DNA of 64,000 bases, taken from a virus. Every line of letters starts with the position of its first letter. Position 1 is the first letter of the stretch. The notes beneath the pieces are model-generated. The model made no database searches and was not told the DNA's origin. It worked only from the letters and a program-made list of their open reading frames with translations. This document shows, piece after piece, positions 6,594 through 37,134 of the stretch. The DNA lies in IMG/VR virus record IMGVR_UViG_3300045919_000302, positions 85,292 to 149,291 of that record; one strand, given 5' to 3'. A program made the translations under genes and the position numbers.

Positions 6594-8996
6594 TCACCAC
6601 CTGAACCCAGGAGGGCTCACAGTCTTCCAGTTTTTGGCCCCGTATTTTTTCTTACGCGACCGGGCATACACCATCGCCATGCGACACCCGCTGTCCACGA
6701 GATCCACGACCAGCGGTGGCTTTTTGTCCGGCCTGACGCGCAGGATCCGGCCTACCGCCTGGTAGAGCGTCCCTTGGATCGGCGAGGCCATAACCATGGT
6801 GTCCAAGCGATCGTTGTTGAATCCGACCGCCAAGAGCTGGGTCGTGGCTACGAGCACCTGGGCCTTCTCGGCGATTGCCCGTTCCTTCTTACCGATTTTC
6901 CCGTGCATCATCCCCACCACAATCCCATGGGGCTTGAGCTGCTTTGTCAGCTCCTTGAACAAGATCTCGACATGCATCACCCGCTCAGACATCACGAGGA
7001 CATGCCGGCCACTCAACGCGGCCTTCACCGCGTTGTTGATGATCACCACATTCCGGACCGGGTTGTTCGTCACCGACTTCAAGAACGGGTTCTTCTGACG
7101 ATCCAAATCTCCTTCGCCGGCCCAAATATACTTCGTATCCACGAAGTAGACGGTGGGCTCTAGGACCTTGATGTCACCCATGGCTTTCACGATCGTGCCG
7201 ATCCCATACTTGAAGACGTTTTCAGCTCTGTCCTTGCGCTCCAGCGTGCCGGAGAGGCCGAGAAAGTATTTCGGCCGGAACTTGAAGAGCACCTTCTGGA
7301 ACTCAGTCGCGCCGACGTAGTGGACCTCGTCGCAAGCGATCAGGCCGAACTCATCGTAAATGCTCTCAGGATAGTCATCCTTCATCGAGAGTGAGTGGAG
7401 CATACCGATGCAAATGTCGTTACCCTTCACATCGACCGTCGATCCCTGAATAATTCCCAGCGACCAGTTGGGGAAGAAGCGTTTGATCTCCTTGATCCAT
7501 TGCTCCATCAGCACCGTCGTGTGGACGACGATCAGGGTCTTCATCCCCATCCTGCGGGCGGTCTCAAGCGCGAGGACGGTTTTACCGCTGTTGTGGGTGA
7601 CCGTAAAATCGCCCATTACATACAGATGATCCCCATCAAGAGAGAAGCCGTAAAAATCGTCCTCAGGAAGACGCTCAACATCAAAAGCCGTCCTGAGCAC
7701 GCTCTTCTTCTGGACTCTCTTTCTCGCCCTTTTCCTGGCGAGCCTCACTGGAACGTCAGCTAATTCACCGGAGATGCACACCCGATAGTAGGTGCCTCCG
7801 TTCCCATGTTGATCTCTCTTCTGGCAAGCCTTCATGTAAGCAGCAAAGCCAAGCGATCTGGCCAAGAAAACCACGCCGGATGCAAGCCTTCTGTCTTTCG
7901 AGATGTAATCGAATGTGCCGTTTGACAAGCTGCCACCAGTGTCGACGATGCCAGCAAGAAGCCCCAGCCTGTCCTCTCGTGAGGAAGTCAGGTAAACACT
8001 GGGAATATGCTTGAATCTGGTGACATTCAAGCGCCGCAGCTTCGACAAGAAAGCGTTGCTCCCTTTCTTACACCCGACAGCCTTCACTGTGACGGCTCGA
8101 TTGTTCGGCAACTCCATCTCAACGGAACTCATACCAATCGAATAGATGTACCGATTCCAATCGAAGATCAGCTCCCTATCCATGGAAGTCAACTCTGCCC
8201 GAGCAGCGGTGCCATCGCCAAGCCAGAGGCCCAGAATGTATGGCGGGATCGGCAGCTCTTTCTTCTGAAACTCAACCGGGACACGGTAAAGTTTGTGAAC
8301 GCTTTTGAACGACTTCGAGCGCGACAAGTAGTCAGCGACTGAGATGTTCACGATCGGGTTGTCGCCCAGGTAGTCCTTTCTTGGAGATTTCGATCCGCGA
8401 GGGTAACTCCTCTTCTTCGTCCTCATGAGAGACAGAATGTGACTCTCGTTAACGACGAACGGATCCCCCTTGGTCGGGGCAATCCTGACCATGCGCTGCC
8501 TTCCGCGTTTGAGTTCGAGAACCGTCCTCGGCTTACTATCTGGACCCATGAGCTGGTCACCGACACGCACATCTTCAACACGCCTCACGGAGCCGTCGAA
8601 CATCAGGATTTCGGTTCCTTTGGCGTGACAGCCCATAGTTGCCTCGATGATCGCACCTCCGAACTCGTTCTCCTTCATGGCTGCGATGGCTCTGGAGATC
8701 ACATCCTCTTGGCCTTCGCGTGGAGCGATGGGATCCGCCGGCCTCGGCTGATTGGACCCGACGCTGTACTGGAGGACTGCTTTGGCGTCCGGAAATCTCT
8801 TCCTAACTATCTTGTTGTAGTATCCTCGCGGGACGCAGAGGTGCTGCTCATCTTCAGCCCAGAGCCGAATCGGATCCGGCATCGGATTGAAAGAGGACGT
8901 CGAGACGGGCACGACCGTCAGCTTCTCTTTAATCATCTCACGGGCGGCGTGCGGCAAATCACTTTTTGAGACACTGACAAGACCACGGTATTTCAT
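6594..8996 (-). CDS. XPB/UvsW-like superfamily 2 helicase interrupted by an intein in its P-loop
   Basis: ATP-dependent DNA helicase of superfamily 2. The 800-residue precursor contains a 347-residue intein (residues 123-469); the spliced enzyme would be 453 residues. Helicase motifs: motif I is assembled across the splice junction (EATMG + SGKT), motif II is DEVH, motif III SGT, motif VI QAVGRILR, with the XPB-type ending MVYARSRKKKYG. The N-terminal ~90 residues look like the small DNA-binding domain of UvsW/XPB-type proteins. It is expected to act in branch migration or repair. GAGAGG stands before the ATG at 8996. Without splicing the Walker A motif is split, so the enzyme should be inactive. 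Confidence 0.93.
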   Translation of the reverse strand: MKYRGLVSVSKSDLPHAAREMIKEKLTVVPVSTSSFNPMPDPIRLWAEDEQHLCVPRGYYNKIVRKRFPDAKAVLQYSVGSNQPRPADPIAPREGQEDVISRAIAAMKENEFGGAIIEATMGCHAKGTEILMFDGSVRRVEDVRVGDQLMGPDSKPRTVLELKRGRQRMVRIAPTKGDPFVVNESHILSLMRTKKRSYPRGSKSPRKDYLGDNPIVNISVADYLSRSKSFKSVHKLYRVPVEFQKKELPIPPYILGLWLGDGTAARAELTSMDRELIFDWNRYIYSIGMSSVEMELPNNRAVTVKAVGCKKGSNAFLSKLRRLNVTRFKHIPSVYLTSSREDRLGLLAGIVDTGGSLSNGTFDYISKDRRLASGVVFLARSLGFAAYMKACQKRDQHGNGGTYYRVCISGELADVPVRLARKRARKRVQKKSVLRTAFDVERLPEDDFYGFSLDGDHLYVMGDFTVTHNSGKTVLALETARRMGMKTLIVVHTTVLMEQWIKEIKRFFPNWSLGIIQGSTVDVKGNDICIGMLHSLSMKDDYPESIYDEFGLIACDEVHYVGATEFQKVLFKFRPKYFLGLSGTLERKDRAENVFKYGIGTIVKAMGDIKVLEPTVYFVDTKYIWAGEGDLDRQKNPFLKSVTNNPVRNVVIINNAVKAALSGRHVLVMSERVMHVEILFKELTKQLKPHGIVVGMMHGKIGKKERAIAEKAQVLVATTQLLAVGFNNDRLDTMVMASPIQGTLYQAVGRILRVRPDKKPPLVVDLVDSGCRMAMVYARSRKKKYGAKNWKTVSPPGFRW
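7590..8630 (-). mobile_element. intein with LAGLIDADG endonuclease domain, inserted at the Walker A motif
   Basis: 347 codons. Splicing signals: first residue Cys (CHAKGTEILMFDG), block B with NESH, block F DDFYGFSLDGDHLYVMG, and the end VTHN followed by extein Ser470. The endonuclease part shows a first LAGLIDADG motif (ILGLWLGDG, acidic residue present) and a second (LLAGIVDTGGS) in which the expected catalytic Asp is Gly. Splicing residues look intact, so protein splicing is likely, while DNA cleavage may be lost. Insertion at GSGKT is a common intein site in ATPases. Confidence 0.93.
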
Positions 8997-9071
8997 TTCT
9001 GCCTCTCAAGACAATAGAGAGCCCGACCCCCAGAGAGTGTGTGTGGTGGGGATATCTAGGAGCCGGGCGCT

Positions 9072-9497
9072 CTAACTTGTTACGCCAGTTTGGCCATGCT
9101 CATCTTCGCGGTGACATTTGAAACACAGCCACGTAACTTCCAGAGGCTTCGAGTAATCGTGGTGGTGAGCTTGAACCTTTTTCTCACCACACTTGCACGG
9201 CAACCGAATCAACCTGCCACCCCTGACTGCGTTATTCACTGCGGCTCTGGCTTTGTGCCTGTCTTCATGCAAGGACCTATGCTTACGCTGATATTCGAGC
9301 TTTCTTTGCTTCCTGTCTGGATCTCGCTCACGCTTGATTTCGTAAGCTTTATATTGATCTTTTCGTTCAGCGTAGTTCCCGCTTGCGTCAGCTTTTGCGC
9401 AGGTCTTGCACTTATTTAAGTGGCCATCCGCCATCCCTGAGTGACGATAAAAATCACTCAAGGATTTAGACGTCTGACACTTAAAACAAGTCTTCAT
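9072..9497 (-). CDS. HNH endonuclease-like protein with zinc fingers
   Basis: A 141-residue free-standing HNH-type protein. The N-terminus has a zinc-binding pattern (C4-x2-C7 and C30-x2-C33, MKTCFKCQTSKSL ... CKTCAK), the centre is a very basic helical region, and the C-terminus carries LPCKCGEKKVQAHHHDYSK followed by WLCFKCHRE, the HNH core with its zinc knuckle. Such genes are usually homing endonucleases. It lies between the SSB and the intein-bearing helicase; 75 bases without a gene separate it from the helicase. Confidence 0.85.
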   Translation of the reverse strand: MKTCFKCQTSKSLSDFYRHSGMADGHLNKCKTCAKADASGNYAERKDQYKAYEIKRERDPDRKQRKLEYQRKHRSLHEDRHKARAAVNNAVRGGRLIRLPCKCGEKKVQAHHHDYSKPLEVTWLCFKCHREDEHGQTGVTS

Positions 9498-12260: not shown

Positions 12261-13435
12261 TTTCTCTCCAGTGTTGTCTGATAAAAGCGCTCCCAAAGTG
12301 GTGCGTTTTCCTTGATGTCAAACTTCCTTACGAACGTCGTATTGGCCTTGACCCGCTCCGAGAGATCAGTCCGGCAGGCTTCACGCAAGGCTTCAAACCA
12401 GCTTCTCTCGTCATTGGGCGTAGCCATCCCACATCCGATCGAGTCTCCGTACGTCACTCCAGCTGAGGCGATCGGGAACGACCCGATGGCCATCGCCTCT
12501 GTCACCTTGAGGTTCGATTTTCCTCTGTTGAAGGGGATATCTACCACGGGCGCGAGGCTGATCTCAGGTTTGATCGCCTTGTAGGTCTGGTAGTAATTCA
12601 TGCACGGCACCGCGCTAAAAAGAAACAATCGATCCTGCGGGATGATCTCAAGCAGAGCGCGATGGGCGTACCCCATCAAGCCGAAGACCACATCCTCACT
12701 CCGGGAGATCCGGCGGACCGCACCCACGATCAGCTCCAGATCCTTCTCATGCGACGGTCCTCCGGACCAGAAGATCATCTTCCTTCCCTGGCGCTTCTCG
12801 TCAAGATGCGGCGGCGTGATCTTTTGATTGTTCGAAAAGATGATGGGCTCGACCGGCGGCATCGCGCTGATCAGATCCAGATCAAGGCAGTTCGGGATGA
12901 CCTCCACGTTCGGGAGATAATTCGAGTAGAGCTGCTTGAGGTAGGGCGTGGTCACGTCTACAGCGTCCGAGATCCGAAAGCTTTCTTCGATGATCTCCCG
13001 CCTGGACACATGGAACTGATGACCAGGGTTCCATTCTGGGATATTCAGATAATCGTCGTCGGCTGTTTGAACCACCACCTTGCCGGCGGACTTCGCGAGC
13101 CGCATCAGCCTCAGGTGGCTCATACCCACCGGCCGCTGGAACACGACGACGTCACTCTGGTTAATTTTGTCCAGGATGGATTTTTTCCACACCTGGATGT
13201 CGGCAGCCGACACCAAGAGCCTCTTGCAGGAGGCGCAATGGGACTCTTCCTGGTCCCACTGCACGTCGTAAGGCCCGCAGTAGAGCCCAGCGCTCATGCA
13301 CGGGTCGCAAAATACCTGCCGCTCGAACTCCTCGTCTTCGCACTGGTGTCCCCGCTCCGAAAGCTGGGACATGGGTGTAAGGACTCGAACCATCCAGCAG
13401 GCGTCACGACGTCTGGTCGCGTAAAAAATTTTCAC
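12257..13435 (-). CDS. GT4-like glycosyltransferase
   Basis: A 392-residue GT-B glycosyltransferase. The C-terminal half shows the family layout: VEVIPNCLDLD, IFWSGGPSHEKDLELI, then VVDIPFNRGKSNLKVTEAMA with the sugar-nucleotide contact region and a late Asn-Asp-Glu (ATPNDERSW). The N-terminal half contains a cysteine cluster (FCDPCMSAGLYCG ... CASC) that may bind zinc. I start it at GTG 13435 (GGAGG five bases upstream, GTGA overlap with the endonuclease stop) rather than TTG 13447. With the fused transferase downstream and the epimerase-like gene at 38436 it forms the phage's sugar-modification set. Confidence 0.85.
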   Translation of the reverse strand: MKIFYATRRRDACWMVRVLTPMSQLSERGHQCEDEEFERQVFCDPCMSAGLYCGPYDVQWDQEESHCASCKRLLVSAADIQVWKKSILDKINQSDVVVFQRPVGMSHLRLMRLAKSAGKVVVQTADDDYLNIPEWNPGHQFHVSRREIIEESFRISDAVDVTTPYLKQLYSNYLPNVEVIPNCLDLDLISAMPPVEPIIFSNNQKITPPHLDEKRQGRKMIFWSGGPSHEKDLELIVGAVRRISRSEDVVFGLMGYAHRALLEIIPQDRLFLFSAVPCMNYYQTYKAIKPEISLAPVVDIPFNRGKSNLKVTEAMAIGSFPIASAGVTYGDSIGCGMATPNDERSWFEALREACRTDLSERVKANTTFVRKFDIKENAPLWERFYQTTLERK

Positions 13436-14079
13436 TTTCGCCTCCAATTCAGTGGTCTCGTTGCAGTGTCTTGTTCTGTCCAGCCATACCGGAGACGGGT
13501 ATGAATGGTTGCAGGCTTAAGGCCGGTCCGCCTTGCCCACTGAGCGATGGTCATCCGCTCTCCGTTTGCGCTAACAAAACGATTCTTTCTTAGATTGTTT
13601 TGCTGCTCAGTCCGAGTGGCCCATCTGCAATTGCTTTTAGAGTAATTACCATTATTATCGATTCGATCCAGCGTTAGCCCATCGGGTCGCTCACCCATGT
13701 CGTTGAGGAAGCCCTCAAACTTATGCCACCGCTCGCAGACTCCGATCCCTCTGCCTCCATAGTTGTGGTAGGCTCGGTTTTTTTCGCTATAGCAACGCGA
13801 CATCATGCCTTCCCAAATGCCGTACATTCTGGTCTTGGACATCCCATGGGTCACGTTGGATGCGGAGACATTTCGACCAAGTTGAGCCGAATTTTCCCTA
13901 CGGAAACAGCCGCAGGAAGTCGTATGACCAGATCTCAGATTGCCGGCCCGGACAATCTTCTCGGCTCCACAATCACAGCGACAGACCCATAGCCTCGTCC
14001 AGCCGCGCGACTCAAGGAAGCTCACAGCTAAAAGTCGACCAAACCTGTCCCCTTCCTTGATGTTACCGACTCCACGCAC
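13432..14079 (-). CDS. free-standing HNH homing endonuclease with C-terminal HTH (copy 1)
   Basis: A 215-residue homing endonuclease-like protein. An N-terminal zinc domain (VCRCDCGAEK ... TTSCGC) is followed by the HNH-type core with YGGRGIGVCERW, LTLDRIDNNGNY and NCRWATRTEQQNN, then a C-terminal DNA-binding segment QWARRTGLKPATI. It is a relative of the gene at 24986. It is wedged between primase and glycosyltransferase genes: its GTG start (GGAGG nine bases upstream) lies inside the last codons of the primase and its stop overlaps the transferase start, so it uses existing expression signals. Such genes spread by cutting phages that lack them. Confidence 0.88.
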   Translation of the reverse strand: MRGVGNIKEGDRFGRLLAVSFLESRGWTRLWVCRCDCGAEKIVRAGNLRSGHTTSCGCFRRENSAQLGRNVSASNVTHGMSKTRMYGIWEGMMSRCYSEKNRAYHNYGGRGIGVCERWHKFEGFLNDMGERPDGLTLDRIDNNGNYSKSNCRWATRTEQQNNLRKNRFVSANGERMTIAQWARRTGLKPATIHTRLRYGWTEQDTATRPLNWRRK

Positions 14080-15148
14080 GGATTCCAACCTCCACCCCTC
14101 CTTTACCTATTACGAATTCGCCCACACTCGACAATGCGGCGTCAACATCTGCTGTCGTCCAAGAATCTGGATCTCTTCCTTCGAAACCATCAGCGAATAG
14201 AAACCTGTAGTCCGACTCCACCCATCGCGGCGACATCACGGACTTTGGTATGAACTCCGGATTGAACTTCACGCCTGCTATGCCGACTCTTTTGCTTAGG
14301 GTGATGAAAATCCTCTGCCCCTGCTCCTGGGCGAAACGAAGCCCAGGCTTGTCACCGTCTACAAAAAACAACACCTCATCGGCCCAATTTTTCAGTTTTT
14401 CGAAATGCTGCATGGATAGGCTGGTTCCCATCGTCCCGAGCACGTTTTTTAATCCCCGCCGCTCCAGCGCTAAAACATCAAAAAAGCCCTCAACCAGGAT
14501 CACTCTCCTGCAAGAGTGATCCAAGAATCGCTCTCCGTAAAACACCGAGTCGCGCGAGAGCCCGGGATAATGTTTGTATTTATTCTTAACAAGACCAGTC
14601 AGGTCCCGGCCGGACACGCCGATGAGCTGGCCTTTAATACTGCGAACCGGGAAGATCATCCGCTTCTCCAGCGGGTCATACCCGATCTCCCACCTGATGA
14701 CCTGCTCCTGGGTCAGGCCGCGCTCGAAGGCGTACTTCGGGATCTCTTCAAGAAACTTCTTGAGCGTGTCCTCGTCAATCACCATAGCCTTCTCGGCGAT
14801 CTTCCGACCGAACTTACGAGAATAGGCCCCGTAGGGTTTCTCGATTTTCTTCCAGGTCGTTCCGCCTTGATCCCCTTCGATCTGGGAAACGTAGTCATAG
14901 GCTCGATAATCCCCCGAGTGGTCGCCGTACGTCCTGGCGAGCTTGCGGACCGTGCCTTCATTTCGGCAACTCCAACACCTGTAGAGCGACGGCTGGCCGG
15001 CCCTGGCGGTCAGCGAAGGGCTCCGGTCGCGTCCCTTGGTGTGCGTCCATGGGGCCAATGGGCAGTGGGTGGACTTGTTCGTGCCGCTCCCGCTCCGGAG
15101 CTTCGACCCCATCAGATCGAAGACGAAGTCCAGCTCCTGGTCAGTCAT
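14063..15148 (-). CDS. DnaG-type DNA primase
   Basis: A 361-residue primase. The N-terminal zinc motif uses C29, H36, C58 and C61 (HCPLAPWTH ... RCWSC). The TOPRIM domain has VILVEGFFDV with E220 and FFVDGDKPG with D264/D266 for metal binding. It lacks the long C-terminal helicase-binding region of bacterial DnaG, as is common in phages. It should lay down RNA primers for the fork, working with the DnaB-like helicase whose stop overlaps its start (ATGA at 15148-15145). Its last 17 bases overlap the inserted homing endonuclease gene. Confidence 0.9.
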   Translation of the reverse strand: MTDQELDFVFDLMGSKLRSGSGTNKSTHCPLAPWTHTKGRDRSPSLTARAGQPSLYRCWSCRNEGTVRKLARTYGDHSGDYRAYDYVSQIEGDQGGTTWKKIEKPYGAYSRKFGRKIAEKAMVIDEDTLKKFLEEIPKYAFERGLTQEQVIRWEIGYDPLEKRMIFPVRSIKGQLIGVSGRDLTGLVKNKYKHYPGLSRDSVFYGERFLDHSCRRVILVEGFFDVLALERRGLKNVLGTMGTSLSMQHFEKLKNWADEVLFFVDGDKPGLRFAQEQGQRIFITLSKRVGIAGVKFNPEFIPKSVMSPRWVESDYRFLFADGFEGRDPDSWTTADVDAALSSVGEFVIGKGGVEVGIRAWSR

Positions 15149-18657: not shown

Positions 18658-18948
18658 TTAACGCTTTTGCTCACAGAGTGGGCACGCGCCCATCTTCACG
18701 TTGAGCGCAGCCAGAATGTATGCGCTCATGTTTTGCAGCTTGGAAAGCTTGCTTGCGACCTTGGGATCAATTCGTACTGCGACGTTCTCCTTGGTCTCTT
18801 CGGACTTCTTCGGCCACGCCTTCTTGCAGACTGGACAGTTGTATTCCAGTGCCTCGACGCTCTCCTGGATGGTGGCCCCCTTTTTTTCGCTCTTATCCAA
18901 GAGACCTGAGATTAATCGAGTGACTCGTGCGCTGATGACTTCTTTCAT
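18658..18948 (-). CDS. small zinc-binding protein with possible ribbon-helix-helix core
   Basis: A 96-residue protein with two CxxC pairs far apart (CPVC at about 38-41, CPLC at about 89-92) and between them VAVRIDPKVASKLSKL followed by MSAYILAAL, which looks like a strand-helix-helix (RHH or similar) unit. The two knuckles may close a single zinc site around that unit. A DNA-binding or regulatory role is possible but not shown. ATG 18948 overlaps the metallophosphoesterase stop (ATGA), with AGAGGTGG upstream. About 100 bases after its stop hold nothing I recognise until the terminator. Confidence 0.7.
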   Translation of the reverse strand: MKEVISARVTRLISGLLDKSEKKGATIQESVEALEYNCPVCKKAWPKKSEETKENVAVRIDPKVASKLSKLQNMSAYILAALNVKMGACPLCEQKR

Positions 18949-19427
18949 TTTCCACCTCTGATGATTTCGATGATTTGCGATTCGTGAACCGGTGCGAAGT
19001 CCCAGACATCCACTCCGACGTTAATCCACTTATCTTTTGTCTTCCACTTCTCGTGGACGTGGCCGTGCAGAATCCAGCCTTCATCCTGAGGTCTAAACTC
19101 CTTGTATCTGACGTCGTAACCCTCAACTTCCACGAACGGCGGCATGTGATGCAAGAGGATAGGAACTCCGTCGATCTCGATCCGGGCTTCGAGCTGCACG
19201 GTCTTGAACACGGACAGATACAACTCCATCGCTTGGGCCATCTTGTTGGGCTTCGTTCGACAAGGATGGACCCAGTCGTGGTTGCCGGCGACCAGATGGA
19301 TCTCGCCATTCAGTCGCGGTCCAACCTCTGTGACCCAGTTCTTCCCGAGCGAGAAGTCGCCCAAGTACCAGACGAAGTCGCCTGGCTTCACCCGAGTGTT
19401 CCAGCGGTCAACCAGAATCGCATTCAT
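18945..19427 (-). CDS. metallophosphoesterase, 5' part cut off by an in-frame amber codon
   Basis: A calcineurin-like phosphoesterase (YfcE-like group) of 160 residues as read from ATG 19427. Visible metal-site motifs: YLGDFSLG, GNHDW, LLHHMP and GHVHEKW. The first motif (DxH) is missing from this reading frame product; it lies upstream in the same frame at 19491-19499, beyond a TAG at 19490-19488. The ATG at 19427 has GAGGAG touching it with no spacer, a poor ribosome site. So either the gene is broken, or the TAG is read through, or the short form is made and inactive. It is co-directional with the SNF2 helicase and the zinc protein. Confidence 0.7.
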   Translation of the reverse strand: MNAILVDRWNTRVKPGDFVWYLGDFSLGKNWVTEVGPRLNGEIHLVAGNHDWVHPCRTKPNKMAQAMELYLSVFKTVQLEARIEIDGVPILLHHMPPFVEVEGYDVRYKEFRPQDEGWILHGHVHEKWKTKDKWINVGVDVWDFAPVHESQIIEIIRGGK

Positions 19428-19523
19428 CTCCTCTTTATCCAGAAATGGGCGATTGCAATACTTGATGACATTTTCGTGACCGAAAAGCTAATGATGGTCA
19501 GACGTGTAAAATCTGTTAACCAT
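19428..19523 (-). other. upstream part of the metallophosphoesterase frame with amber codon at 19488-19490
   Basis: From ATG 19523 the frame reads MVNRFYTSDHH, then TAG, then LFGHENVIKYCNRPF and on into the downstream frame without a further stop. SDHH...FGHENVIKYCNRPF is the conserved beginning of this enzyme family, so the six bases TAGCTT look like an insertion or a recent mutation inside the metal-binding motif. The ATG overlaps the helicase stop by eight bases and has GGCGAGG upstream. The rest of the gene shows no decay. Confidence 0.75.
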
Positions 19524-22500
19524 CGAGCACCTCGCCTTCTACATGTCCGACATGCTTTTTGAGTTGGTCGTTGGTTTTCTCGGTTCCCCAGTCCTTCTGG
19601 AGATCATCAAGGCCGATGCCCTTCTCCATCCACGCCTGCTCTTCGGCGGTGAGCTTCTTGCCTTCAAGCACCTTACGGGCCAACTCAGCCTTCTTTTTAA
19701 GGATCCCGATGACTTTGGAGTCCCAACGATTGCCAGCAGCCTTGATCCAGTAGACGTTCACCATGTTCTTCTGACCGATACGGTGTGCTCGTGCAGTGGC
19801 CTGGGCTTCATCGGCAGTATTCCACGGCAGGTCGTTGAAGATCACCTTGTCCGCCCGGGTCAGGGTTGCTCCGACCGCGAGGGATTGACGGGTGGTGCAG
19901 AACACCCGCTTGTCGGTTCCTTCGCGCTGGAACTCGGCCTTGGCCGCTTCGCGGACTTCGTCAGAAAGCTGGCCGTGATGGAGCAGGGAAAGGTCGCCCA
20001 TGGCTTCGTGGATCTGTTTGGCAACTTCGACCGAGTCCGAGAATACGAGCATGCTTGAGTCGGAGGATTCGAGCATCTCCTTGATGAACTCGATCGTCGC
20101 TCCGGCCTTGTCGATGGCGATGTCGCTCTTCATCCGGGCGATGTCTTCGAAGTCGATCTTGCCGTCTTCCGGGATGTCGCGGCAGCCTTCGACTTCGAGT
20201 TCGATGATCGAAGTGAGCTTCTCCGGGAGATCCTTCAGGACTTGGGCCTTGGAGGCGGTCTTGTAGAACTCCTGGATCTTGTGCCAGGTGCCGCCGATGG
20301 TCGCCATCTTGAGCGCGGTCTTGGACTCGAAGAAGCCGGGGCGGATCAGCTCCACCTGGGTGAAGAGTTCGTCCTTCTTGTTCTTGATCGCGGTGCCCGA
20401 GAGGAGGATCTTGTGGGCGAAGAGTGAGGAGACCGAGTGGACGGATTTGGTGATCTTGGCCTTCGGGTTCTTGATCGAGTGACTATTGTGAACCAGTGCT
20501 CCGTTTACAGAGAACGAAGGGTGGCCAGACACTTTGAGATCGTAGTAAAAACCCTGCTCGTTTCCTGGGTAACCTCCAGATTCGTGAACCGTAACACCGT
20601 CCACCCTAATTCCTTTAACTTCAGATCTTTTTTCTTGTCCTGCTCTCTCCGAGACAAGTGCGACAAGCCGTCCACTTCTACGCACAGCCGGTCCGAGACC
20701 AGCGCAAGATCCACTTTGTAGTTCGTTGGATATCCCGGAAATCTCCCACCCAAAGACACCGCGTGATTCCATTTCCACGAACGACCGAGGCGTGACAACA
20801 ACAATCTCTCCGGTTTCGTCGGCCCGTGGCCGTTCCCGCCCCGAACTGTTGGCTTCCATCCTATTCGTTTCAGAGTCGCCGAGACTTTGGATCGCGTGGC
20901 TGCTGAATGCATGGGATTCTTCAGTCTCATGCGAATAGCCGAATCCGGCCTCGCCTTCCCGGTTAGCGAGTTGCTTATTTTTAAAGCTGTCTTCTTCGTG
21001 TAAACCTTTGCTCGAATAGCAGGTTGCCTCATTCTCCATTTCGCAGAGCAGGAGGTTCCGCAAAAACGCTGCTTTCTGTACTGGTTTGGCAGGAAACTCT
21101 TCGCGCAATAACTGCACGGCTTCTTCTTGGCTGACAAGGGTGTCTCCTTCTTTTAGGTTTTCAGCAAACACCCACCCACGACTTGTAAGGAAAGGATGAT
21201 GCGATGAACATGTGACCGTTTGTCCACCGTATCTTAATTCAGTGCGGCTGTCCAATATCTGCGTCCTCTTGGTTCCGAGAACAGTAGATGTACCGGCAGC
21301 CGAATAGACCTCATCACCGACTTTTATTTGATCAATCCGCACCGGCCCACTTGGGGTATCAATAAGGGTCTCAGGTCCAAAGCACTCGTCGATCACCATC
21401 ACGTCGAAACCGGCGGCCTGGATCGCGGGGAGGAACTTCTCGAAGCTCGCGAAGTTGACGCTGGCGATTTGAACCTGGGAGAGATCCGGCATCCCGTTCT
21501 TCTTGAGCGACTTCGGGGTCAGCTCAATGCAGCGGGTGAAGTAGCCCGGGAAGAACTTCTTGGCTTCCTGGATCCAGGTCCGGCGAACCACCTTGGGGCA
21601 GACCACCAGGATCCGCTTGTTGTTCATCGCGGCGTAGCAGAGGGAGATGAGGGTCTTACCGAGGCCCATCTCAGCGCCGATCAGGGCGTTGCCGTTGGCG
21701 ACATTCAGGAAGCGGACGAAGTCGTTCTGGAAGGGGAACGGGACGATCTCGGGATTGATCATCGCCATCAGCTCCGGGATCGGGGCTTCGGCGGCGGCCT
21801 TCTTCATGTCGCGCTCGACCTGGGCTTCTTCGATACCCTGGAAGAAAAACTTCCAGCTCGGGAGCAACTCGCGGGCCTTGGTGATCGCTTCGAGGGCGAG
21901 ATCGAGGTTGTTGGTCAGACGGGCCCAGTCGGAGACCCGGCACTCGACGATCCCGGAGAGCTGGCTCGTTTTGTTTGAGAAGAGGCCATTCAGAACGGTG
22001 GAGAACGAGAACCGGAACTCGAACATGTCGCCCACCTTGCGGCAGATGAAGGCGTTGTTGATCCGCTTCTGGTCGAGGAGGGAGAGAGCCTTCTCCAGAG
22101 TGAGTTCGGCCTCCGGGGTCTTCTCAAACACCGGCACCGGGTTCACGGTGAAGCCCAGGGCCTCTAACTCGGCCTTGTAGCCGGCGAAGTCGAATGAGTC
22201 GATGTTCCTGCCCGGAACGTAGTTACGATCGAGGCCCCGGTCCCACCAAAGGCCGAACTTCTGGTTGACCCGGATGTACCGACGGCGCACCAGGGTGGGG
22301 ATCGAGCCTTCGTGAGACATGAGAAGGGCCGCACCCCAGCGGGCGTCAAGCACCTGGAGGACTGGGGTGATCGTCGGGAGCTTGATCTCAACCTTGACTT
22401 CAACCCGGAAGCTCTGGGGGTAGTTCTGCTCGACCGCTTCGCGGCCTTCTTCGCCGAACTGGCCGAGCTGGGTCTTGAGGTACTTCTTGAGGACGTGGGC

Positions 22501-22650
22501 CATCTCGGTGGCATCGCCCCGGACACCCGGCCAGCTGATCCAGTCAGGTTGATTGAAGCCGACCTCGTTCCGCTCCTTGACTTCGTCGATTCCAAACAGG
22601 AAGTCGCCCATGTGGCAGAGAAGCTGAGCTTGAATCAAGAATTTTTCCAT
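19516..22650 (-). CDS. SNF2-family helicase interrupted by an intein in its DEAH box
   Basis: A 1044-residue precursor; removal of the intein (residues 423-722) leaves 744 residues. SNF2/SF2 motifs: motif I GAEMGLGKT (325-333), motif Ia LVVCPKVV, motif II formed at the junction as VMVIDE + SHSIKN, motif III LLSGTAIKN, and motif VI TARAHRIGQ. Residues 1-290 are a long N-terminal domain of unknown role in which a HARP-like module may be present. Such enzymes (SMARCAL1/HARP-like) remodel forks or DNA-protein complexes. GAGG precedes the ATG at 22650 and a promoter-like motif lies at 22669-22704. Confidence 0.92.
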   Translation of the reverse strand: MEKFLIQAQLLCHMGDFLFGIDEVKERNEVGFNQPDWISWPGVRGDATEMAHVLKKYLKTQLGQFGEEGREAVEQNYPQSFRVEVKVEIKLPTITPVLQVLDARWGAALLMSHEGSIPTLVRRRYIRVNQKFGLWWDRGLDRNYVPGRNIDSFDFAGYKAELEALGFTVNPVPVFEKTPEAELTLEKALSLLDQKRINNAFICRKVGDMFEFRFSFSTVLNGLFSNKTSQLSGIVECRVSDWARLTNNLDLALEAITKARELLPSWKFFFQGIEEAQVERDMKKAAAEAPIPELMAMINPEIVPFPFQNDFVRFLNVANGNALIGAEMGLGKTLISLCYAAMNNKRILVVCPKVVRRTWIQEAKKFFPGYFTRCIELTPKSLKKNGMPDLSQVQIASVNFASFEKFLPAIQAAGFDVMVIDECFGPETLIDTPSGPVRIDQIKVGDEVYSAAGTSTVLGTKRTQILDSRTELRYGGQTVTCSSHHPFLTSRGWVFAENLKEGDTLVSQEEAVQLLREEFPAKPVQKAAFLRNLLLCEMENEATCYSSKGLHEEDSFKNKQLANREGEAGFGYSHETEESHAFSSHAIQSLGDSETNRMEANSSGRERPRADETGEIVVVTPRSFVEMESRGVFGWEISGISNELQSGSCAGLGPAVRRSGRLVALVSERAGQEKRSEVKGIRVDGVTVHESGGYPGNEQGFYYDLKVSGHPSFSVNGALVHNSHSIKNPKAKITKSVHSVSSLFAHKILLSGTAIKNKKDELFTQVELIRPGFFESKTALKMATIGGTWHKIQEFYKTASKAQVLKDLPEKLTSIIELEVEGCRDIPEDGKIDFEDIARMKSDIAIDKAGATIEFIKEMLESSDSSMLVFSDSVEVAKQIHEAMGDLSLLHHGQLSDEVREAAKAEFQREGTDKRVFCTTRQSLAVGATLTRADKVIFNDLPWNTADEAQATARAHRIGQKNMVNVYWIKAAGNRWDSKVIGILKKKAELARKVLEGKKLTAEEQAWMEKGIGLDDLQKDWGTEKTNDQLKKHVGHVEGEVLDG
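20485..21384 (-). mobile_element. intein inserted at the DEAH box of the SNF2 helicase, hosting an out-of-frame endonuclease gene
   Basis: 300 codons. Splicing features: Cys423 start (CFGPETLIDTPSGPVRI), VGDEVYS, block B TVTCSSHHPFLT, a block F-like FYYDLKVSGHPSFSVNG, and ALVHN with extein Ser723. These Hint parts add up to about 130 residues; the remaining ~170 residues (roughly codons 515-685) have a composition with no known fold and overlap the endonuclease gene at 20505-21137, which is read in another minus-strand frame. The intein frame has no stop, so full-length splicing-competent protein can be made. Confidence 0.93.
20505..21137 (-). CDS. Vsr/DUF559-like homing endonuclease nested out of frame inside the intein gene
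   Basis: A 210-residue protein in a different frame from the surrounding intein. N-terminal zinc knuckle (C8, C11, C26, C30: PCSYC ... FCGTSC), a NUMOD3-type DNA-binding repeat (residues 51-94: KISNSLTGK, RMRLKNPM, KVSATLKRIGW), then a Vsr/DUF559-like nuclease: PTKPERLLL (E110), NYKVDLAL (D143), CVEVDGLSH (E154, D156, H160) and GWTVLRFTN. It starts at TTG 21137 with AAGGAG six bases upstream, a ribosome site that lies in the codons for the conserved K-E-G-D motif of the intein. It would be the mobility enzyme of this intein. Confidence 0.88.
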   Translation of the reverse strand: MSAKKKPCSYCAKSFLPNQYRKQRFCGTSCSAKWRMRQPAIRAKVYTKKTALKISNSLTGKARPDSAIRMRLKNPMHSAATRSKVSATLKRIGWKPTVRGGNGHGPTKPERLLLSRLGRSWKWNHAVSLGGRFPGYPTNYKVDLALVSDRLCVEVDGLSHLSRREQDKKKDLKLKELGWTVLRFTNLEVTQETSRVFTTISKCLATLRSL

Positions 22651-24985: not shown

Positions 24986-25735
24986 TTACCGTTCGCAGGT
25001 TAGGCAGTAGCGACTGCCTCTATAAATCCTAGTATTTTTTGGACTATACCTATGCCCGCGAGAGCAGTGGGTTTTCGCCTTATTGGAGAACAGTTTGGGC
25101 GAAAGAGCCCTGGATAAGGGCCAGCCTTTCGCTAGACGAGCCTCTATGGTCGCAGGCTTTAGCCCCAGCTTCCTGGCCCACTGAGAAACCGTGAGACGCT
25201 CACCATTGAATTCAATAAACACACTGGAGCGGCGATTATTTGCCTGCTCGATTGCGTCTGCCCATCGACAATTTCCAGGCTCATAGTTCCCGTTGTTTTC
25301 AATTCGCTCAATCGAATTTTTCCCAGCTGGCGGTTGGCCCATGTCCTCAAGAAACCGATCAAACTCCTGCCATCGCGAGCAGACAGCGATGCCTCTCGCT
25401 CCATGGCTTTGGTACCTATTGCTACCGGGGTTGAAGCAGCGCTGTAACATTGCCCTCCATGAGCGATAGGCCGGCGAGCGAGAAAGCATCTTCCTGGATC
25501 TATAAAGACAGCCGCAAGCAACGCGCTTGCCTCTCCTGGCATTCATCAGATTCGGGCGACCTTTAACCGTTTCAGATCCGCAGTCACAGCGGCACCGCCA
25601 ATAGGAGTTTGAATTTCTCGTTTCGACAAACTCAATGACTACGAGCTTGTCGAAACGAGAGCCAACAAGAGACCTATCTAAAGAGGGCGGTGAGCGCTCC
25701 GAGGAATGGTTTGTTTGATCCGACAGCTTGCTCAT
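24986..25735 (-). CDS. free-standing HNH homing endonuclease (copy 2)
   Basis: Related along most of its length to the gene at 13432: zinc domain ([12 protein letters not shown] ... VACGC), HNH-type core ([36 protein letters not shown]), and [13 protein letters not shown]. It has an extra C-terminal zinc unit (HCSRGHRYS ... YCLTCER). In the core, the copy-1 motif DRIDNNGNY reads ERIENNGNY, so activity is uncertain. The start is unsure: ATG 25735 lacks a clear Shine-Dalgarno and lies 60 bases inside the end of the upstream lipoprotein gene, read in another frame. Confidence 0.8.
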
Positions 25736-26576
25736 TGAAGTACCAATAAAAGAACCCACCAAAATAACGGGGGTTATTTACCTGAAGTGTAACATATTGA
25801 CGAGCGTAATCTGAGAGCTGCTGGGTTGTGCCGCTCTTCAGGCCAATTTCTCCAAAGCCAACCTTTGCATTGGGAAAGATTGAAGCCAGGCGATCAAAGG
25901 TCTGCTGCCATTCCGGCAGTGCCGGCTCTCGGCCGTTGCAATCTTGCGAATAGTAAGAAATCGTGGCCAGATCCGTACCCTGCTTGACTCGGTCTGCGAC
26001 ATAGGTCTGGATCCAGTCGAACATTGGGCCATGCGCGTCTTCGCATGTGTTGTTGTAATAAACAGTGGTCATGACAGGGATTCCACGAGCCTTGACCGCA
26101 TCGTAGCCAGCGGAGATCTTTGCGGCAACGTCGCTTGACGCACCAAGCCAATCGCCATTGATCTCGTTCCCAGACTCTAGCGCAATGACCTTCCCTTTGA
26201 AGGCATCGGCGTAGGCAGCCATCCGTGCTGCATACTGGGACGCCGAGAGCTTCTTGACCCCTTCCGAGTCCACCGGTTGACCAACAACGTCGGCCACGGC
26301 GGAAATTTGAACTACCGCATCCATGTAATCCGAAGGATTCATTCCCGGATCGAAGACAACTCGGACCATCGGCCGAACCGAAAAAGATCTCAATGCCGCA
26401 ACAACGCCGGCCAGATTCGTCGTATTGTCAACCGTGACGCCGTACCGTAATCCCGCCACCGGATTCGGCAGGGGACTGACGGAGACCTGAGGCTCGGGGG
26501 TCGGAAGTGGATCCGGTTTGTTCTGCGGACAGCCGGAAAAAACCAAGAGCGTGGCAATAAGTAGAAGTGTTTTCAT
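25674..26576 (-). CDS. lipoprotein with TIM-barrel glycoside-hydrolase-like domain
   Basis: A 300-residue exported protein. Residues 1-16 are a lipoprotein signal ending in LVFSGC (Cys16 lipidated), followed by a Pro-rich linker and a domain with features of clan GH-A glycosidases: [12 protein letters not shown] with the Asn-Glu pair (N137-E138) at the acid/base position, [11 protein letters not shown] with E243 at the nucleophile position, and [12 protein letters not shown] near the end. It may cleave a host envelope or extracellular glycan, either from an infected cell's outer membrane or as a decoy/modifier. Substrate unknown. Confidence 0.75.
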
Positions 26577-26591
26577 GTCCCCGACTCTATG

Positions 26592-26939
26592 TCACTCGAT
26601 CACGATCTTCCACTTGTTCTTGCGGAGGGTCTCGTAAAGGGCCTCCTCAAGCTTCAAGACCATGCTCTCCGGAAGTTTAATCTTGTACTCATGCGCCATG
26701 GCATGGAGCACCTCGTGAATCACTGTGCTCTCGGTGTTCTCGATGCCCTCGTCGAGCGAAACCTCGATCCTGGGGATGTCGTAGTAAGTGCAGCCGTACT
26801 CATCGGGCATTGTGGTCAGATAGGTGATGGGATAACTTTGCTCTTTCACCAGAACAGCGCTCGGGAGCTTCTTGAAGACCATAGCGTTTGCGTCCTCTCT
26901 CTGGAAAAGAATCAGGACAATGAGCCAAAGCATCTTCAC
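26592..26939 (-). CDS. exported HExxH metalloprotein
   Basis: A 115-residue protein with an N-terminal hydrophobic segment ending in DANA (signal peptide-like) and a zinc-peptidase motif VIHEVLHAMAHE (HEVLH). Small HExxH proteins of this size occur in many phages with unknown role. I use GTG 26939 (GTGA overlap with the phosphoesterase stop); ATG 26930 is another choice. It lies 15 bases from the lipoprotein hydrolase, and both should act outside the cytoplasm. Confidence 0.7.
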   Translation of the reverse strand: MKMLWLIVLILFQREDANAMVFKKLPSAVLVKEQSYPITYLTTMPDEYGCTYYDIPRIEVSLDEGIENTESTVIHEVLHAMAHEYKIKLPESMVLKLEEALYETLRKNKWKIVIE

Positions 26940-28204
26940 CAAATGAGCTTGATCGCCTGTTCCGGTGTAGATGCTTCCATCTCAAATCCGTCGCAGAAGA
27001 TGGGCATCTGATGAGTGATCTCCCCGGCCTGGTTTACGATGAACAGGGCCTGCTTTGGGCGCTCGAACATGAAGTTCGAAATGAAGGCGTACTCGTCATA
27101 CCCCTTCATTGATCCGTTGATGATCAGCGACTCCGTCATAATGAGCTGGTGAAAGTGACCAACCATCATCAGATCGAATGGCCGTCGGACCGAGGCGTTT
27201 CGCTTCTGCTTTCGACTCATCCCGAGCATGAGCGGGCTGAAGATCCCGGAGATTCCATTCCCACCCCTGAACTGGTCGCCATGGGTCAAGAGGATAGTCT
27301 TCGAGTAGATTTGGAACTGGGCGTCGGCCCCGTCAGGAATCATGAACGCGACATTCTGATTGTCTCGGTAATGCCTGGCCAGAAACTGGTAGAGAACCCA
27401 CTCGTAGTTGTCGTAGACCTTATTTTTGGCCCGAGGCTTCTTGTGATGCCGACCGTGATTTCCGACGACCGCCGGAATGAAGACCTTTTTGAATCTCGAC
27501 AGAAGACGATCAATCACACCGATGAAGTGCCCGATCCAGAAGACAATCGACCGATTGATCGAGTCTTCATTCGTCTCGGCAAGTTCCTCGTGGATGTTTC
27601 CTGAAAAGATGTCGCCGCCCAGAGCTAGAACAATCCCAGGGTATCTCGGATTCTTCACGTGCTCAGTGAGGAGTGTAATCGCGGTATTGACCGTGTGGTG
27701 CAATCTCTCAACAGCGATCTGACGATTGTACTTATTCAGGTTCTGGATCTGCTCAGCGCATACCACCTCGTCCAAGTGCAGGTCCGAGAGAAAAAGGACT
27801 GGAACGCCGCTGGTCTCTGCATCCAAAATTTTAGGCTTGAGCCATTCCACCTTTCGATTCAGGTGCGCCTGACTGACGCCGTGAACCGTGTCACGGAGGG
27901 TCTTTGACGATACAGCTTCATCCTCGATGTCAGAGATGTGTTTATTGAGTCGTTTGATCTCATCCTTGTGTTCACTCAACCTCACGCGGAGATCGGCGAG
28001 GCTCTTGACCTCGGGGTCGTCGTACTTAAGAGCGCCAGAGGCGGAGAGCGATGCCGCCCATCCGCCAAATACTTTCCTTAGCTCCCACTCTTTGAATTTT
28101 CCAGAGGTGAGGTACTCATGCTTTTCGGGGACTCTTTTCAACTTGTCTGCGAGATCTTTGATGTCCTTCTTGATCAGGTCGGCCTTCGACATCTGCTTAG
28201 ACAT
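26936..28204 (-). CDS. calcineurin-like metallophosphoesterase with N-terminal DNA-binding-like domain
   Basis: A 422-residue enzyme. Residues ~1-60 have the phage-type helical domain with SGKFKEWELRKVFGGW; a coiled coil follows; the catalytic domain has all metal-site motifs: FLSDLHLDE, ALGGDIFSG, VGNHGR, LTHGDQ and VGHFHQ. It may act on nucleic acids (as Mre11/SbcD do) or other phosphoesters. Start at ATG 28204; no strong ribosome site is seen. Unlike the phosphoesterase at 18945 this one is intact. Confidence 0.88.
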   Translation of the reverse strand: MSKQMSKADLIKKDIKDLADKLKRVPEKHEYLTSGKFKEWELRKVFGGWAASLSASGALKYDDPEVKSLADLRVRLSEHKDEIKRLNKHISDIEDEAVSSKTLRDTVHGVSQAHLNRKVEWLKPKILDAETSGVPVLFLSDLHLDEVVCAEQIQNLNKYNRQIAVERLHHTVNTAITLLTEHVKNPRYPGIVLALGGDIFSGNIHEELAETNEDSINRSIVFWIGHFIGVIDRLLSRFKKVFIPAVVGNHGRHHKKPRAKNKVYDNYEWVLYQFLARHYRDNQNVAFMIPDGADAQFQIYSKTILLTHGDQFRGGNGISGIFSPLMLGMSRKQKRNASVRRPFDLMMVGHFHQLIMTESLIINGSMKGYDEYAFISNFMFERPKQALFIVNQAGEITHQMPIFCDGFEMEASTPEQAIKLIW

Positions 28205-28291
28205 GAACAAACCGTCGCACCCCTGTTATCAACCAAACACAACAGGTGCCCCTTTGATTCAATTGTTCGCGTGTAAGAAAGAACTGTCGAG

Positions 28292-35941: not shown

Positions 35942-36300
35942 GCGGCCTCCTGAACCCAAGGACCATAGCGTCTGTAGACGTCCATCATGTTGCGGCACTG
36001 GACTTTGGTGAATTTCGAAACCTTGCGAGCGCGGTGGGTCTTGTAGTACTCGGCGATCGGCATGCGGTAGCCGAACCAGTGGTCGAGCACGATCCCGCCG
36101 TACTCCAGCCAGGAGTGGTGCTCGGGGCCGTTCTCGGTGGTGATCCAGCCCTGGCAGACGAGCCAGGCCGGGTTACGAAGCTGGAAGTGAACCGGATCGC
36201 GGTAGCGTGGGTTCGCGACGAATCCGCCCGGGACGAAGCGCTTAGCCTTCGGGAAGAGGGCTCGGAACTGCTTGACGGTCATGATTCGTTTTGTAGCCAT
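35938..36300 (-). CDS. uncharacterised protein rich in aromatic residues
   Basis: A 120-residue protein with many His, Trp and Tyr residues. Its centre, GGFVANPRYRDPVHFQL and AWLVCQGWITTENGPEHHSW, looks like a compact beta domain found in other phage proteins, but I cannot name it. The upstream 75 bases contain TTTTGTAGTAGATACTGTAGTG (minus strand), which has the TGTAG element seen in the repeats at 18451-18526. Confidence 0.65.
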   Translation of the reverse strand: MATKRIMTVKQFRALFPKAKRFVPGGFVANPRYRDPVHFQLRNPAWLVCQGWITTENGPEHHSWLEYGGIVLDHWFGYRMPIAEYYKTHRARKVSKFTKVQCRNMMDVYRRYGPWVQEAA

Positions 36301-36375
36301 ACCTAAACACTACAGTATCTACTACAAAACGTACAGAGAAATAACGCTGCGGGCAATGCTAATAATTACGATGTA

Positions 36376-37134
36376 TTACAGCTTATCTTCCAGGCCCGGA
36401 ACGGCAGAAAGTCGGCTCATAATGCCCAAATCAGCAGCCCAAGTCTTCACAAAAGCCCAGTCCACAGGCTTCTCCGCCAGCTCGGAAATGTGCGAAATGT
36501 CCTTCGGGCGTCCCGAGGCAAGCTTGGTCAGGATGAAACCCTCGATCGAGGGTAGCAAGATCTTGCGCCCCAGAATCTGGGTTGGCTTCGCAAATTCGAA
36601 AAGAGCCTCGGCGAACTCACGATCCAGGTATTCGATCACATCCAGCTCGCGGCCGTTGAGCCCGTACTTGTGCAGAAGCCTCTTGGGCTTCGAGTAGTCG
36701 ATCACCTGCTTGAATTCAAAGCCCGCTGCCCGAAGTTTTTTGTCGATCTTGACGATGTCCTGGGTGTGAACGAAGACATCGAAGTCCTCGGTCGCTGAAG
36801 CCTGGCCCTGAAGGATTGACTTCGCAAATCCACCCCCGAGCAAGAATCCACCACCCATCACCTCGATGCACCTCTTCACGAAGTCAAGAAGAGACATCCT
36901 CGCAGGAGCGCCGGTCATCTCGGCCAGGACCGATTCGATCTCCGAAATCTCGCTGACGACATCGCGCTTGAGCAGGGCTCTAACGTCCCGCTCAAGAAGA
37001 TCCACTCGCTCGTGGATTGTTGTTTTGCCGCGCCTGGGGCGACCGCCGATCTGGCCGTTGCGCCGCGCCGCTGCGGCCTTGGCTTCCGATTTAACTTTTC
37101 CAAGACGAACAGCTGCGGAGTTTTTGCGGTACAT
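36376..37134 (-). CDS. AbiEii/minimal nucleotidyltransferase-like protein
   Basis: A 252-residue protein. The nucleotidyltransferase signature is clear: LLGGGFAKSILQG followed by TEDFDVFV (Asp pair for metal binding), and later NGRELDVIEYLD with a third Asp. AbiEii-type proteins are toxins of type IV toxin-antitoxin systems that modify tRNA. The N-terminus carries AAAARRNGQIGGRPRRGK, a basic DNA-binding-like stretch, then a coiled coil. I see no AbiEi-like antitoxin gene beside it. The start at ATG 37134 avoids overlap with the HNH gene. It could protect against rival phages or be an RNA-modifying enzyme. Confidence 0.7.
   Translation of the reverse strand: MYRKNSAAVRLGKVKSEAKAAAARRNGQIGGRPRRGKTTIHERVDLLERDVRALLKRDVVSEISEIESVLAEMTGAPARMSLLDFVKRCIEVMGGGFLLGGGFAKSILQGQASATEDFDVFVHTQDIVKIDKKLRAAGFEFKQVIDYSKPKRLLHKYGLNGRELDVIEYLDREFAEALFEFAKPTQILGRKILLPSIEGFILTKLASGRPKDISHISELAEKPVDWAFVKTWAADLGIMSRLSAVPGLEDKL

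Follow-up and report, generated by a model that had tools for sequence, protein, structure and literature searches.

The amber-interrupted phosphoesterase frame

The window analysed here, 64,000 nucleotides long, is a portion of a 149,291-base phage contig from IMG/VR. On its minus strand lies a metallophosphoesterase reading frame of the phrog_547 type (18945..19523), which runs from ATG 19523 to TGA 18945 over 192 codons and contains a single TAG, at codon 12 (19490-19488). The sequence-only reading had located an amber codon in the first metal motif of the frame starting at ATG 19523, and our analysis confirms it: the frame reads MVNRFYTSDHH-TAG-LFGHENVIKYC, with the stop between SDHH and L-FGHENV. 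Under the standard code the gene does not form one open frame. The part downstream of the TAG had been described as intact, which is correct, but its length is 180 sense codons, all open, and not 160. The latter figure belongs to the residual frame that begins at the next in-frame ATG (18945..19427, minus strand). Its 160-aa product would be devoid of three metal-site residues (D9, H11 and H16), and the AGGAG of ATG 19427 immediately abuts that codon. ATG 19523 is preceded by a well-placed GAGG and overlaps the stop of the upstream gene, which encodes a SNF2-type helicase with an intein (19516..22650, minus strand).

If the TAG is read through, the predicted product is a 192-residue calcineurin-like phosphoesterase. 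This translation matches the phrog_547 profile over its whole length (residues 1-190, E 4.4e-42), and its match to PF12850 exceeds the family cut-off. The remaining motifs (GD, GNHD, H-x-P, GHVH and NVGVD) are all there, and each residue invariant in phrog_547 is kept. Conservation reaches at least 80% in 44 columns, of which 40 match the family; the four deviations, against a family median of one, involve no invariant column, and even the nearest homologue is only 54% identical. The frame is thus no product of chance. The closest solved structure is Aquifex AQ665 (PDB 1xm7). The phage gene shares sequence family (E 4e-42), fold and all invariant residues with AQ665 and with the phrog_547 phosphoesterases, such as gp235 of Streptomyces phage TunaTartare, but differs from them by an in-frame TAG and a further codon, both within the DxHxxH loop.

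A six-base insertion in the first metal motif

The stop codon is part of an extra TAGCTT (19485..19490, minus strand) that is absent from homologues and sits between SDHH and FGHENV. It breaks the spacing of the first metal motif, D-x-H-x-x-H, by two codons, one of which is the TAG. This spacing was constant in the first 11 relatives and then in 50 aligned homologues, none of which has a residue in either of the two inserted columns (TAG and CTT), and H16 is invariant across 51 sequences. In a larger set of more than 150 viral and bacterial homologues, exactly two residues separate D-x-H from the next His in 159 of the 163 scored, the four exceptions being mostly wrong picks by the script. The suggestion that TAGCTT is a six-base insertion is thus borne out. 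Because the homologues keep the motif spacing fixed, TAGCTT is a lineage-specific two-codon insertion, and the gene is otherwise intact. In the structure model of the read-through protein, mean pLDDT is 93 but falls to 80 over residues 11-20, whereas an intact homologue reaches 97 in the same loop.

Two rival explanations concern the six bases. The first is that they are an assembly or sequencing artefact, absent from the DNA itself, and that the gene is an ordinary phosphoesterase. The sequence comes from a single metagenomic contig, for which no DNA-level relative, second copy or near-identical contig was found. However, short-read errors do not usually take the form of a clean six-base in-frame insertion, and the frame around it shows no other error, so that we regard an artefact as unlikely. 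The second is that ribosomes bypass TAGCTT or shift frame over it, restoring the family sequence without any suppressor tRNA. A six-base skip would indeed yield the family spacing, but the take-off codon CAT and the landing codon CTT do not match, and frameshifting would abandon the conserved frame, which runs on in frame 0. This explanation is hardly credible.

TAG as a stop codon in this phage

The six positions at which the sequence-only reading had seen TAG used as an ordinary stop are all real TAG codons, and its view that recoding of the whole genome is unlikely is upheld by the alignment of the terminase stop and by coding density. At the C-terminus where the terminase gene stops with TAG, its aligned counterparts in three related phages stop with TGA, TAG and TAA, and other TAG-ended genes stop where their families end. 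Of five pieces of the contig, four gained no coding density when TAG was read as sense. In the fifth (40-60 kb) density rose from 0.82 to 0.90, but the chosen frames switched strand and treating TGA as sense raised density by a similar amount.

Scans for other amber-split genes, based on the coding score of the flanks, yielded none that was convincing. These scans are coarse: even the phosphoesterase escapes their strict versions, owing to its short upstream part and a long antisense frame. One candidate (L015 17007) was rejected since it is antisense to an endonuclease-like gene. A search for a phage release-factor gene was likewise negative.

In this phage, TAG thus serves as a true stop and is not generally recoded. 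Reassignment throughout the genome or in late genes (code 15), in which the phosphoesterase would be just one among many affected genes, has the CUA tRNA described below in its favour. It is very improbable, as the terminase, which belongs to the late genes, stops at a TAG aligned with the stops of its relatives, and neither a convincing density gain, nor other split genes, nor a release factor accompanies it; as a general rule, genome-wide reassignment is ruled out by the terminase alignment and coding density.

We noticed that the portal gene lies in frame, three codons after the TAG of the terminase gene (L015:9398-12517 and 7607-9388, minus strand). Amber suppression would therefore fuse both proteins. 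In-frame neighbouring genes are also seen across TAA and TGA, so that the terminase-portal pair is not special by count.

A CUA tRNA gene and possible amber suppression

The suggested search of the genome for a suppressor tRNA was successful: the contig's sole tRNA gene (contig positions 53387-53463, minus strand, outside the window) has the anticodon CUA and would read UAG. Its score of 41.6 bits (E 1e-8) exceeds the gathering score, 29, and it encodes its CCA. In the Infernal alignment the anticodon stem is bulged by an additional U in its 5' strand, and the gene ranks low beside those of other phages (39-72 bits above the cut-off). In a comparison with 64 tRNAs, its body comes closest to a tRNA-Ser of the Bdellovibrio type, although the long variable arm is missing. 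Seryl-tRNA synthetase uses the long variable arm of tRNA-Ser. No match to this tRNA was found in phage records by DNA or in viral contigs by pattern.

Since the contig carries this gene, production of the full-length phosphoesterase by partial amber suppression is possible. The enzyme, extended by two residues (X-Leu), would then appear only once the tRNA accumulates, and the amber codon would throttle or time a single enzyme. Several observations are consistent with such a scenario. The sole tRNA gene in 149 kb has exactly the required anticodon and co-occurs with an amber-split gene; the frame is open and conserved on either side of the TAG, with near-complete agreement at the well-conserved columns and a full set of invariant residues; and the start and ribosome-binding site are kept. 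On the other hand, invariant histidines would be separated in the product by two additional residues that none of the 50 aligned homologues has, precisely where model confidence drops. The bulged anticodon stem of the tRNA, its low rank and its tRNA-Ser-like body without the long arm, which points to no clear amino acid, also speak against this scenario. Suppression, if efficient, would also fuse terminase to portal, and a convincing second target gene is lacking. Overall, we consider partial suppression by the phage's own tRNA a serious but rather unlikely explanation. Somewhat more doubtful still is the stronger proposal that a phage with the standard code makes one enzyme by means of its own amber suppressor tRNA, translation being switched at the single UAG of the metal site.

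Regulated readthrough, which the sequence-only reading had considered conceivable, is not established; its product would be two residues longer at a motif of invariant spacing. The argument from a leaky UAG-C context cuts both ways: a 3' C weakens termination at UAG, yet suppressor tRNAs also work less well before a C than before a purine.

Suppressor-type tRNAs are not confined to phages with a modified code. Stenotrophomonas phage Summit has a predicted amber suppressor tRNA and a standard code; no target was found and the purpose of the tRNA is still unknown according to its authors (PMC9022506). The phage studied here resembles Summit in its standard code, its several TAG-ended genes and its predicted CUA-type tRNA, the tRNA gene and TAG as a retained stop being both found here. 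It differs in having a candidate target, an in-frame amber inside a conserved domain, and a terminase TAG followed by an in-frame portal gene, whereas Summit's authors found neither; moreover, Summit has five tRNA genes and the contig here a single one. A second case comes from our own comparison: among 13 other phage contigs searched for tRNAs, one (G008) encodes a CUA tRNA (L025:1500-1573). It carries an intact phosphoesterase and also appears to use the standard code in the 40 kb checked. CUA tRNAs thus occur in standard-code phages without known targets.

Of the phages predicted to use code 15, 52% carry a CUA suppressor tRNA (PMC11210395). Like the phage described here, code-15 phages (crAss-like, Lak, phAss-1) combine such a tRNA with in-frame TAG inside conserved genes. 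They have, however, many TAG-interrupted genes and a coding density that increases under code 15, whereas here a single gene is affected and the terminase ends at a genuine TAG stop.

Disrupted homologues and genomic relatives

In-frame stops in otherwise intact prokaryotic genes are reportedly widespread, many of them under purifying selection (PMC7918605). Among about 160 homologues of the phosphoesterase we found four clear cases of disruption, all in bacterial assemblies and none among the viral homologues checked. One has a TGA within the first metal motif (SDHHF-TGA-H; L137, 610-640) and another a one-base (+1) frameshift in the same SDHHFGH motif (L131, 250-300). In the two others (L144:1048-1050 and L166:1066-1068), TAG replaces the near-invariant Trp after GHVH in an otherwise intact frame. 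These cases show that alleles with a single lesion exist in this family.

We found no relatives with the same flanks as the phosphoesterase gene. In the phage that harbours the nearest homologue, no relative of this helicase or of this portal could be detected. The helicase had no relative among viral contigs and only weak, scattered matches in two of 21 phages carrying a phosphoesterase, and the phosphoesterase gene was absent from the short contigs of the portal relatives.

A young loss-of-function allele?

The phosphoesterase is most likely a recent loss-of-function allele, a conclusion that we hold at about even confidence. In this view, six bases that include TAG were inserted into the DxH metal loop of a metallophosphoesterase that is accessory to the phage. 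Translation from 19523 would halt after 11 residues, with no good in-frame restart downstream, as the product from ATG 19427 would not contain the first metal motif. The remainder of the gene would still be intact because the event is young. The CUA tRNA would be a separate, orphan suppressor-type tRNA, similar to those of other standard-code phages, and would at most allow a low level of full-length protein, longer by two residues at the metal site. The insertion, the stop, the intact remainder, the use of TAG as a true stop elsewhere and the CUA tRNA gene are direct observations; we infer the age of the allele, its loss of function and the lack of a link with the tRNA. The fixed spacing of D-x-H-x-x-H, the invariance of H16 and the local fall in pLDDT all argue for a null allele, as do the status of TAG as a genuine stop and the failure to find a convincing second amber-split gene or coding-density gain. 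The single-lesion bacterial alleles, for which no suppression is known, and the lone CUA tRNAs of G008 and Summit point in the same direction. Conversely, random decay does not usually leave the frame preserved and free of a second lesion, the start and ribosome-binding site are retained, the viral homologues are undisrupted and UAG is precisely the codon read by the contig's sole tRNA gene. A very young pseudogene, one of the options put forward from the sequence, is the most economical reading of an otherwise intact gene, with suppression by the phage's own tRNA and, less probably, assembly error as its rivals.

The use of suppressor tRNAs by phages with an unchanged code is unexplained. One amber-interrupted but otherwise intact gene together with one CUA tRNA provides a testable candidate target for such an orphan tRNA and, if the switch were real, it would be the first concrete target in standard-code phages. 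If suppression does not occur, the same locus would be a caution that an in-frame stop and a suppressor tRNA do not prove recoding.

Neighbouring genes

The intein of the helicase is marked by matches to Hint and intein-splicing domains at about residues 423-722. Within it, in another frame, lies an ORF (20505-21137, minus strand) related to DUF559/Vsr-like endonucleases (PF04480, E 4e-14). This nested, out-of-frame ORF is possibly a homing endonuclease gene. Three similar free-standing genes (window 13432-14088 and 24986-25762, both minus strand; contig 36240-37100, plus strand) have no Pfam match and resemble AP2/HNH endonucleases by eye. Finally, a gene at window positions 26936-28210 (minus strand) appears by eye to encode a second, intact metallophosphoesterase, with an N-terminal homing-endonuclease-associated repeat (PF18780).
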